Assembly (NCBI RefSeq): GCF_004102725.1
Contig: NZ_LHQS01000001.1
Location: 477,327-541,326 of the forward strand
DNA from: Methanoculleus taiwanensis
GTDB lineage: Archaea; Halobacteriota; Methanomicrobia; Methanomicrobiales; Methanoculleaceae
DNA: 64,000 nt
Reading direction: 5' to 3'
Below are positions 1,911 through 5,664 of the stretch, one piece after another; position 1 is the stretch's first letter; every line of letters begins with the position of its first letter. The position numbers and the translations under genes were made by a program. Below the pieces are notes generated by a model, which was given only the letters and a program-made list of their open reading frames with translations, was not told the DNA's origin and ran no database searches.

Positions 1911-3089
1911 TCACCCGAGCAGTCCGGCGATGAGCCTTCCGATCCTGCTCCGCTCGAGTGCGATCGCTTCCTCGGTGCACATCTCATGGCAGCAGTAGCA
2001 GCGGATGCATTTCGCAAGGTCGATGACCGCCCTGCCATCCCGCACCGTTATGGCGCTCATCGGGCAGATCCGTTCGCACTTCCGGCACCCGGTGCACCGG
2101 GTTTCATCGACCTTTGGTGAGAGGGCGTAGGCCGCTCCGAACCGCTGGACGACTGCGAGGAGCGCCCGCCGCCAGATCCCGGTTCCGCTCCCCGCATAGG
2201 TGGACGGTTTTTTAAAGTCGGGTACGGCTATCTCGTCCGGCGGGACACCCCGTGTCACGATGCCGGCGAAGTCCGGATCGATAAGCCCACGGTTCGCGGC
2301 GTCCCGGATCGACCCGATCTCGAGGGGGTCGTATCCGATGAGGCGGGCGAGCACCACGTCCATGGCCGTATAACTGCCGCTCGCGAGAACGGCGCCGATC
2401 TTCCGTGGCGTCCCCGATTGGGGGCCGTCGCCCTCCATCCCCACGACCGCGTCCATGATCTGGAGACGGGGCTTTACGAGCTCGTTGAGATCGACGAGCA
2501 TCCTTCCAAACTGCGCTTCGTCCCTGAACCGGAAGTGGAAGGCGGGTTTTTCAAAGCCCGGTATCAGGCCGAAGAGGTTCTTCGCCGCCCCGCTCATCCG
2601 CGTCCACATATGCGTCTTGGCCTTCGAGACGACCACGATCGCATCGGCCTTTAGTGCCGGGGTGATGATCGAGAAGCGCTTCATCACCTCGCCGCCCGGG
2701 AAAGGAACCTCCTCGTGGCCGGGGTCGAGGTTGAGGTCTATCCCGAGCTCTTCAGCGACGGCAGTGAATCCCGATGCGGCATAGGCCCGGCGAAGGTTTC
2801 CTTCGGAGTAGACGATCCCGGCTCCAGGGCTGTCGGCGATCATCACCCGGCACCCGTGCTCGGCGAGGAGCTCCGCAACGGCGAAGACGACCTCAGGGTG
2901 GGTGGTGACGCATCGTCCGGGGTCGGACCCCTGCAGCATATTCGGCTTCACGAGGACGGTCTCGCCCGGCGAGGCGAAGATGCCCACCCCGCCGATAAGC
3001 CCGATCGCTTCCCGCACCGCCTTCCTGACCTCGTCACGGCGGTATCCGTCACAGCGGACGATCGATACCGGCATCTCTGCTGCTGCCAT
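1911..3089 (-). CDS. DUF362 domain protein with C-terminal two-cluster ferredoxin domain
   Basis: 392 residues. The N-terminal three quarters match DUF362: VLVKPNMLQGSDPG near residue 50, then ADSPGAG, VVSKAKTHMWT and AAKNLFGLIPG. The last ~65 residues hold two [4Fe-4S] motifs, CTGCRKCERICP and CIRCYCCHEMC. Family members are thought to be redox or maturation proteins, but the substrate is unknown. The ATG at 3089 was chosen over longer in-frame extensions because AGGAAG precedes it, and because an upstream start would overlap the RNase III gene ending at 3118. The 28-base gap suggests co-transcription with RNase III. Confidence 0.85.
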   Translation of the reverse strand: MAAAEMPVSIVRCDGYRRDEVRKAVREAIGLIGGVGIFASPGETVLVKPNMLQGSDPGRCVTTHPEVVFAVAELLAEHGCRVMIADSPGAGIVYSEGNLRRAYAASGFTAVAEELGIDLNLDPGHEEVPFPGGEVMKRFSIITPALKADAIVVVSKAKTHMWTRMSGAAKNLFGLIPGFEKPAFHFRFRDEAQFGRMLVDLNELVKPRLQIMDAVVGMEGDGPQSGTPRKIGAVLASGSYTAMDVVLARLIGYDPLEIGSIRDAANRGLIDPDFAGIVTRGVPPDEIAVPDFKKPSTYAGSGTGIWRRALLAVVQRFGAAYALSPKVDETRCTGCRKCERICPMSAITVRDGRAVIDLAKCIRCYCCHEMCTEEAIALERSRIGRLIAGLLG

Positions 3090-3117: not shown

Positions 3118-3900
3118 TTATCTTCTCCCCTCGCCGAGCCGGGCGAGGGCATCCTCCGCCGCAACCGTGGCGGCGCCCTGCTTGGTGCTGTCGGTTCCCG
3201 TGCCGCAGACCTCCCCGCCGAGCAGCACCTGTGCAGTCCAGGTGGCGGCGTTTTCAGGCCCGGTCTGCCGATACTCGTAATCGACGGCGCCGAGTTTTCG
3301 CGAGGCCGCAAGCTCCTGGAGTCTTCCTTTATAGTTCCTGGTGAGGTCGAACCGCTCGATCTCTTCCGCAAAGATCGCGAGGATGACCGTCCGCACCGTC
3401 TCCATGCCGCGGTCGAGATAGATCGCGCCGAGGAGTGCCTCGAATGCGTCGGCGATGATGGCGTCGGTGAGAACCTGACCCCGGCGCCGGAGCGCTCCAT
3501 CGATGCCGAGATTACGGGAGAGAGCGATCTCCGCGAGATTGGCGTTCCCGGTCACCTGAAGCCGTCTGTTCAGTTCTCCCGGGGGGAGATTGTAGCGGGA
3601 GTAAAGATGATCGGCGATGACGAAGTCGAGGACGTAATTGCCGAGAAACTCGAGCCGCTCGTTGTCTCCGGTGGCGGAACGTCGATACCGTGCCCCTTCG
3701 ACGTAAGACCGGTGCGTCAGCGCCCGGTCGTAGAGCATGAGCTCCCCGGCATCTGCTATCTCGAGGTTGAACGGCGGGGCGGCGAGGAGGCGGCGGAGTT
3801 CCTCCTCGCGGCCCTGAGCCGGCGGGAGGGGTATCTCTTCGCGGTGCCGTCGCAGAAAGGAGGGAACCTTCAGTCTGATCGGGAGCGTTGGGAACTTCAT
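3118..3900 (-). CDS. rnc: Ribonuclease III with a substituted catalytic Asp
   Basis: A 260-residue class I RNase III. The nuclease domain spans about residues 35-180 and a double-stranded RNA-binding domain about 185-258 (YKGRLQELAAS ... KQGAATVAAEDAL). The signature is NERLEFLGNYVLDF. Aligned to E. coli RNase III, Glu38 and Glu41 are kept (Glu81, Glu84), and Asp114/Glu117 are kept as Asp151/Glu154 in ADAFEALLGAIYLD, but Asp45 is Asn88. RNase III processes double-stranded RNA in bacteria and eukaryotes and is found in only a few archaea. A basic extension of ~30 residues precedes the domain. The gene is divergent from the protease at 4014. Confidence 0.88.
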   Translation of the reverse strand: MKFPTLPIRLKVPSFLRRHREEIPLPPAQGREEELRRLLAAPPFNLEIADAGELMLYDRALTHRSYVEGARYRRSATGDNERLEFLGNYVLDFVIADHLYSRYNLPPGELNRRLQVTGNANLAEIALSRNLGIDGALRRRGQVLTDAIIADAFEALLGAIYLDRGMETVRTVILAIFAEEIERFDLTRNYKGRLQELAASRKLGAVDYEYRQTGPENAATWTAQVLLGGEVCGTGTDSTKQGAATVAAEDALARLGEGRR

Positions 3901-4013: not shown

Positions 4014-4844
4014 ATGGTCGATGTCTGGACGGTGCTCGTGGTGGTTGCCGTCATCATCCTGGTTCTGCCCATCGCCGGGCGTCTCATCACCCGGATCCGG
4101 CGTATCAGGATGATCCGGACGATCGAAGAGATGCGGACGACCCGGGTGATCACCCTGATCCACCGGCAGGAGCGTGTGGCGCTTCTCGGCATTCCCCTCG
4201 TCCGCTATATCACTATTCCCGATGCCGAGGATATTCTGCGGGCTATCAGGCTCACTCCGGCGACCATGCCGATCGATCTCGTCGTCCACACGCCGGGCGG
4301 TCTCGTGCTCCCGGCAGAACAGATCGCCATGGCGCTCAAACGGCATCCCGCCCAGGTAACGGTCTTCGTCCCCCACTACGCGATGTCCGGAGGGACACTG
4401 CTTTGCCTTGCAGCCTCCCGGGTGGTGATGGACGAAAACGCTGTCCTCGGACCGGTCGATCCGATCATCGGGCGGTATCCTGCGGCGTCGATCCTGTATG
4501 CGGCCCGCATCAAAGATGTCAATGAGGTCGACGACGAGACACTCATCCTCGCGGATATCGCCGGAAAAGCCAGCGGGCAGATGCAGGAGTTCGTTCGCAC
4601 CATGCTTGCGGGAACGGTAGATCCGGAGAGCAGAGCGCGGATAGCCGAGGCTCTGACCGGTGGGATCTGGACGCACGACTACCCGATCACCTGCCGTGAG
4701 GCCGTTGGGATAGGGCTTCCGGTCTCCTGCACGATGCCGGAGGAGATATTCCGGCTGATGGACCTCTACCCGCAGGCGATGCCGGGGCGTTCCGCGGTCG
4801 AGTACCTCCCGGTGCCGTACCGGAAGAAGGGTGATCGGCGCTAA
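4014..4844 (+). CDS. SDH-type (serine dehydrogenase proteinase-like) membrane serine protease
   Basis: 276 residues of the ClpP/crotonase fold. One N-terminal transmembrane helix (about residues 3-23) anchors a cytoplasmic protease domain. VVHTPGG and the nucleophile segment YAMSGGTLLCLAA (Ser about 126), followed by DENAVLGPVDPIIG, are typical of the archaeal SDH family (PF01972). Family members are predicted Ser/Lys or Ser/His/Asp-type peptidases of unknown target, possibly in membrane protein turnover. A TATA-like CTTATACCC sits about 75 bases upstream. The end overlaps no gene, but the exonuclease-like gene follows after 67 bases. Confidence 0.82.
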   Translation: MVDVWTVLVVVAVIILVLPIAGRLITRIRRIRMIRTIEEMRTTRVITLIHRQERVALLGIPLVRYITIPDAEDILRAIRLTPATMPIDLVVHTPGGLVLPAEQIAMALKRHPAQVTVFVPHYAMSGGTLLCLAASRVVMDENAVLGPVDPIIGRYPAASILYAARIKDVNEVDDETLILADIAGKASGQMQEFVRTMLAGTVDPESRARIAEALTGGIWTHDYPITCREAVGIGLPVSCTMPEEIFRLMDLYPQAMPGRSAVEYLPVPYRKKGDRR

Positions 4845-4911
4845 GGGATCTGTCCGGAATCTTTTACCTGTACGAGGTCTGACAGTATGTATCCCGTCGC
4901 CGGGAGGTGTA

Positions 4912-5664
4912 ATGATATCCGGTGACACTGCATACCTGGATCTCGAGTTCGGTTATGTCTACGGGACGGCACGAGCCGTGATCATGCCGATCGAGATCGG
5001 TGTGGTCGTCCACCGCCGGGAGGATGATTCCGTCAGGTACGCCGGAGACGTGTTCCGGTACGGGATTGACGTCGAGATCTGGAAGAAGGTCGCCGATGAC
5101 TGCGGGCGCACCGTCGGCGTCTCGACGTCGGTCGCGAATACCGGCGAAGGTGTCTACGGGAAACCCTACGACCACTACTTCCGCCTCTCACCGGAGAGGA
5201 CGGTCTCCGCTCAAACGATCTCCCGGGCGGCGTTTGATGATCTCCGTGCCTTTATGGTCGGGCTCCTCGACAGCGGGCAGGTCTCGAGGCTGGTCGTCTT
5301 TGCGGCCGATATGGAGAAGATGGCGTTTCGCGAAGCCGGTATCCCGGTTGAGAGCTATACGCTTGTCGACCTCCAGCGGGAGATCAAACGGCAGATGTCC
5401 CTGCGCGACGTTTTCTCGCTCGACCGTGTGTCCCGCCTCGTCGACTTCCGGACGGGCGACGGCGTTATCGCCTCGGCGCATTTCGAGTACCCGATCCCGG
5501 CGGCGTTCCAGGGGTGCCTCGCGCCTCACCGCGGGATGGGCGATGCCGCACGGATATTCCTCCTCTCCCGGGAGTTTTTTGACCGCCGGGAGGCTTTTAC
5601 GAAGAGAATAGATGCGCTCACCCGGGTATGCGAGGCATCCCGCGAGCCGGAGAGCGGCAGGTGA
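4912..5664 (+). CDS. DEDDh-type exonuclease-like protein
   Basis: 250 residues. I read three RNase H-fold exonuclease motifs: motif I YLDLEFG followed by MPIEIGVVV; a motif II candidate VVFAADMEKMAF around residue 125; and motif III PHRGMGDAARIF near residue 209, matching the H-x4-D-A pattern of DEDDh enzymes. This arrangement is typical of 3'-5' exonucleases such as DnaQ or the KapD/Eri1 group; DNA versus RNA substrate cannot be told. The ATG at 4912 was chosen because a strong Shine-Dalgarno sequence (GGGAGGTG) precedes it. The 3' end directly abuts the convergent moeA gene. Confidence 0.68.
   Translation: MISGDTAYLDLEFGYVYGTARAVIMPIEIGVVVHRREDDSVRYAGDVFRYGIDVEIWKKVADDCGRTVGVSTSVANTGEGVYGKPYDHYFRLSPERTVSAQTISRAAFDDLRAFMVGLLDSGQVSRLVVFAADMEKMAFREAGIPVESYTLVDLQREIKRQMSLRDVFSLDRVSRLVDFRTGDGVIASAHFEYPIPAAFQGCLAPHRGMGDAARIFLLSREFFDRREAFTKRIDALTRVCEASREPESGR

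Follow-up and report, generated by a model that had tools for sequence, protein, structure and literature searches.

The protein examined here is most likely (probability about one half) an inherited class I RNase III whose active site was remodelled once and which would act as a slow or restricted metal-dependent endonuclease. Its gene lies in a 64,000-nucleotide stretch of Methanoculleus taiwanensis DNA that was analysed as a whole and is called the window below. As judged by sequence comparison, the Asn that stands where E. coli has Asp45 is an old remodelling common to a methanogen family, rather than an error. Asp45 mutants of RNase III are known mainly from the bench, and a family that fixed Asp45 to Asn long ago is nature's own test of the need for two metal sites.

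The gene and its active-site features were located as follows:

3118..3900, minus strand: RNase III-domain and dsRBD protein P0001, 260 aa, ATG start (ORF and Pfam)
3637..3660, minus strand: signature ERLEFLGN, residues 81-88, with Glu81 (E. coli E38) and Glu84 (E41) retained
3637..3639, minus strand: Asn88, encoded by AAT, in place of E. coli Asp45 (alignment)
3580..3582, minus strand: codon CCG, Pro107, at the E. coli Glu65 position, a loss coupled with Asn88 (alignment)
3439..3450, minus strand: residues 151-154, with Asp151 (D114) and Glu154 (E117) retained
3136..3333, minus strand: dsRBD, residues 190-255, which departs from E. coli at His184 (here Asn217) and Arg209 (here Gln241) (Pfam and alignment)

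Class I RNase IIIs are homodimers that cleave dsRNA in a Mg2+-dependent manner and leave 2-nt 3' overhangs. The window protein has the class I domain order, a single RNase III domain and, C-terminal to it, a single dsRBD, both in its Pfam matches (Ribonucleas_3_3, 3.9e-23; Ribonuclease_3, 7.1e-15; dsrm, 1.9e-10) and in the secondary structure of its model. It passes the superfamily cut-offs of PF14622 and PF00636 (82.5 bits against 35 and 56.1 against 27), and scores 145.9 bits against the 166.25 required by TIGR02191, the equivalog of canonical RNase III. The host genome holds three RNase III-like genes, of which this is the only dsRBD-type one found; the others are L002, discussed below, and L003 (1396-2175 of its own locus, minus strand), a very degenerate protein of 259 aa under the Pfam cut-off.

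In RNase III, two Mg2+ ions are held by four carboxylates. Three of the canonical four (E41, D114 and E117) are present in the window protein, while D45 is replaced by Asn88: residue 88 is N in NERLEFLGNYVLDF, the alignment to E. coli Asp45 is gap-free, and solved RNase IIIs have Asp at the aligned position. Reading frame, codon and alignment thus agree with the original prediction on this residue. Its further statement that the other three catalytic carboxylates are intact holds for Glu84, Asp151 and Glu154, but the active site is altered elsewhere, the positions of Glu65 and Glu100 being occupied by Pro107 and Gln142. The change had been treated as a single residue, and the coupled loss of Glu65 had been missed. 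E. coli mutant data and the Aquifex structures place both Asp45 and Glu65 among the acids that line the active centre.

The distribution of Asn45 was followed in a family sample made up of the query and 33 members (Methanoculleus and kin) drawn from genus, order and named-genome searches, with about 56-64% identity to the query. All 34 members, query included, carry LEFLGN in independent assemblies. Asn is therefore fixed among these relatives, and a sequencing error or private mutation can be dismissed with near certainty. Relatives with Asp, which would have counted for such an accident, do not occur inside the clade, yet more distant Methanomicrobiales do have Asp at position 45. Outside the main copies of the family, Asn45 was found in L057, from a more distant genus, in L058 and L076, from other families, and in the contig-end fragments L127 and L128 of another family, which are nearest to L058 and L076. 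Some Methanoculleus genomes hold second Asn-type copies (L059, L060 and L061), one of them with an in-frame TGA; L060 and L061, which lie within family members, carry Asn45 and have also changed Asp114 to Asn. A frame-broken RNase III gene from family f8 (L126, genome G414) reads GNYVLELS with Glu65 retained, and is apparently a separate Asn case.

Searches beyond the order gave a different picture. In Bacillota, where 167 genomes matched, all of the approximately 150 matches listed for ERLEFLG[DN] end in Asp codons. Three other signature matches beyond the order (G240, G335 and G458) proved to be unrelated proteins. Spread by viruses was rejected: one scan of viral contigs gave ten RNase III relatives, and every one of them reads LEFLGD. 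The view that RNase III is unusual in archaea fits reviews, but RNase III-domain proteins are common in this order.

Comparison of seven conserved acids of bacterial RNase III (E38, E41, D45, E65, E100, D114 and E117) separated three patterns. The Asn clade reads E-E-N-P-Q-D-E, the remaining dsRBD-type Methanomicrobiales mostly read E-E-D-E-Q-(D/G/A)-E, and most domain-only proteins read (D/E)-(A/R)-D-(K/R)-E-E-E. Asn45 and Glu65 occur together in none of the full-length rows compared, those with Asn45 having Pro (38) or Val (one) at position 65; the dsRBD-type rows with Asp45 mostly have Glu65. Positions 46 (Tyr vs Arg), 49 (Asp vs Asn) and 65 (Pro vs Glu) split the two Methanomicrobiales clades almost completely, with Tyr89 and Asp92 (positions 46 and 49) fixed in the Asn clade. 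The combination of Asn88, the loss of Glu65, fixed Tyr89 and Asp92, and the usual loss of a histidine from loop 2 of the dsRBD amounts to a coordinated remodelling.

These neighbouring changes raise the possibility that the enzyme is fully active, with Asn88 and Asp92, one helical turn further on, substituting for Asp45 without real loss. Asn can ligate Mg2+, and every Asn-clade row has Asp92 where the Asp-type sisters have Asn. An acid at position 49 also stands beside Asp45 in L044, L047 and L086, however, and L127 and L128 have Asn at both positions, so a strict swap between positions 45 and 49 is ruled out, L086 having both acids and the two fragments neither. The weak activity of E. coli D45N (PMC8708148) further counts against full activity, which we regard as unlikely.

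A single origin of the Asn was supported by a careful IQ-TREE analysis of 77 rows from which columns 45 and 65 were excluded. All Asn rows group together (fork 92/71) and one D/N change is needed; because the support of this fork is moderate, a single origin within the group is likely rather than certain. The next relatives (L086, L089 and L090; joining fork 96/85) combine Asp45 with Ala or Ser at position 65, so Glu65 may have been lost before Asp45. All 38 clade rows have E38, E41 and E117, and 36 of them have D114; the Asn codon is AAC in 33 and AAT in 5, and the median pairwise dN/dS of 0.22 indicates purifying selection. The invariant acids, the synonymous Asn codons and this ratio together indicate that the protein is maintained. 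Retention of Asn by 34 of 34 members through synonymous codons, set against Asp codons in all the listed Bacillota matches, is more than chance would give.

The preferred explanation is then vertical inheritance of a class I RNase III in Methanoculleus-like methanogens, with one ancestral remodelling in which Asp45 would have become Asn, Glu65 would have been lost, and Tyr at 46 and Asp at 49 would have been fixed. The metal-binding set Glu41/Asp114/Glu117 would be retained and the Asp45 side of the site weakened. Such a protein would most likely be a homodimeric, divalent-metal-dependent RNA endonuclease whose cleavage may be slow or substrate-restricted and may call for high Mg2+ or for Mn2+. 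The sequence, the fixation of Asn, its coupling with position 65, purifying selection and the predicted fold stand as results; dimer formation, residual cleavage and the metal preference are inferred. With two acids lost together and three maintained by selection, the pattern is more in keeping with a specialised or slow metal-dependent nuclease than with a relic.

Mutant data from bacterial enzymes bear on this by analogy; no open-access paper was found that describes a naturally occurring D45N or the biochemistry of an archaeal RNase III. In E. coli, D45E and D45N show weak activity in excess magnesium only, as does D114A, whereas E65A and D45A show no activity in vivo (PMC8708148 Table 1), and D45A is rescued by Mn2+ (PMC3839596). 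The lowered activity that had been proposed is thus supported by analogy, and the weak activity of D45N in excess magnesium suggests a slow nuclease. RNase III structures from Thermotoga and Aquifex are among the matches of a monomeric AlphaFold model with a mean pLDDT of 79.7. One of them, 2EZ6, is the D44N mutant of the Aquifex enzyme, crystallised, according to its entry title, with the product of dsRNA processing. That title suggests residual activity of D44N. The fold match to 2EZ6, the status of sole dsRBD-type copy and the conserved gene order described below also support the slow-nuclease reading. Against an active nuclease stand the loss of Asp114 in L060 and L061, the TIGR02191 score below the cut-off, and a review in which Aquifex carboxylate mutants including D44N, in metal-free form, bound RNA without cleaving it (PMC8138440). 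The loss of two conserved acids, together with Glu100, which is also gone in the Asp-type relatives, could have abolished cleavage.

A serious rival to an active nuclease, possible if doubtful, is that catalysis has been lost and that the protein is an RNase III-fold dsRNA-binding or structural/assembly factor. The joint loss of the Asp45 and Glu65 equivalents and the inactivity of E. coli D45A in vivo (PMC8708148) speak for it, as does the existence of noncatalytic RNase III folds, such as the KREPB proteins of trypanosomes and, among the structures that the model's fold matched, protein chains of the mitoribosomal large subunit. A dead enzyme need not have kept the remaining carboxylates (near-)invariant, however, and the dsRBD is atypical. 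The domain is present (dsrm), as had been stated, but it is not intact at the canonical RNA contacts: the loop-2 GPxH His and the second basic residue of the RNA-contact helix are replaced by N217 and Q241, with Lys240 retained. The loop-2 His is gone in 35 of the 38 Asn-clade rows, and Gln replaces the helix-2 basic residue in the same number. With E. coli D45N also low in dsRNA binding (PMC8708148 Table 1), the proposal of a mainly dsRNA-binding role is the less well supported part of the original prediction.

A further alternative is a heterodimer with L002 (1477-1941 of its own locus, minus strand), a domain-only RNase III-like protein of 154 aa whose gene lies in another part of the genome. 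It belongs to a widespread archaeal family of about 150-200 aa (including L181-L200) in which E41 is mostly replaced by Ala or Arg, E65 mostly by Lys or Arg and D114 by Glu, with Asp45 and Glu117 retained. Both kinds of protein are present in the genome of the window, each of the 14 other family genomes in the phylum sample shows one or more additional RNase III-domain matches (checked for domain-only status in some of them), and heterodimers with one competent subunit occur in trypanosome editing complexes (PMC9508840). On the other side, genomes that lack a dsRBD-type RNase III can carry domain-only proteins as well, and no gene linkage between the two kinds was seen. The four metal ligands of one RNase III site come from one subunit, so repair of the metal site across subunits by L002 is not favoured, and the heterodimer appears very improbable.

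The genes beside the RNase III gene are:

1911..3089, minus strand: DUF362/ferredoxin-domain gene, directly downstream of the RNase III gene
4014-4844: SDH-type protease gene, between the RNase III gene and the next gene listed
4831..5664, plus strand: unannotated conserved protein, weak DEDDh exonuclease-like fold

The order RNase III-DUF362 is kept in 10 of 10 relatives, and a HIT gene follows in nine of those 10. In nine Methanoculleus loci the 4831-5664 gene and the RNase III gene are immediate neighbours in divergent orientation. The product of the 4831-5664 gene has no Pfam or NCBIfam match; E39, D180 and H233-x4-D238 are invariant and D37 nearly so, a pattern of motifs that resembles DEDDh. 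The weak best matches of its model (modest pLDDT of 68) include the DEDDh exonucleases 3'hExo and CRN-4 (E about 0.01, probability 0.97) and also DnaQ. Such a divergent neighbour is absent beside RNase III in family f4 and in FWC-SCC1, and a functional link is therefore a lead only. A more specific version of the restricted nuclease, which we consider rather unlikely, is a natural RNase III lineage that abandoned one metal-ligand side and relies on one strong metal site for a narrow task, for example to nick or trim a single structured RNA. It might do so together with the DEDDh-like exonuclease whose divergent gene is its neighbour in most relatives.

Among known systems, E. coli Rnc and Aquifex aeolicus RNase III share with the window protein the domain order, ERLEFLG, the Glu41/Asp114/Glu117 equivalents and the predicted fold. 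The window protein differs from them in Asp45 to Asn, Glu65 to Pro and Glu100 to Gln, in the missing dsRBD loop-2 His and in falling under the TIGR02191 cut-off. The Asp-type RNase IIIs of Methanomicrobiales families f4 and f6 have the same N-terminal element, a dsRBD and Gln at the Glu100 position, but, unlike the window protein, retain Asp45 and mostly Glu65. Of their 21 rows, 11 (L062, L063, L066, L068, L071, L072, L075, L079, L080, L083 and L084) carry Gly or Ala at the Asp114 position, so the carboxylate missing in these sister groups differs from that of the Asn clade. Mucor R3B2 is a natural RNase III-domain protein whose signature is altered, including Glu at the Asp45 position, and which is still needed for function; it is fungal, with two dsRBDs, other substitutions and another pathway (PMC4395119). 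The laboratory mutants Aquifex D44N (2EZ6) and E. coli D45N carry the identical substitution, but as a single engineered change, whereas the methanogen Asn is natural, fixed and accompanied by a change at position 65.
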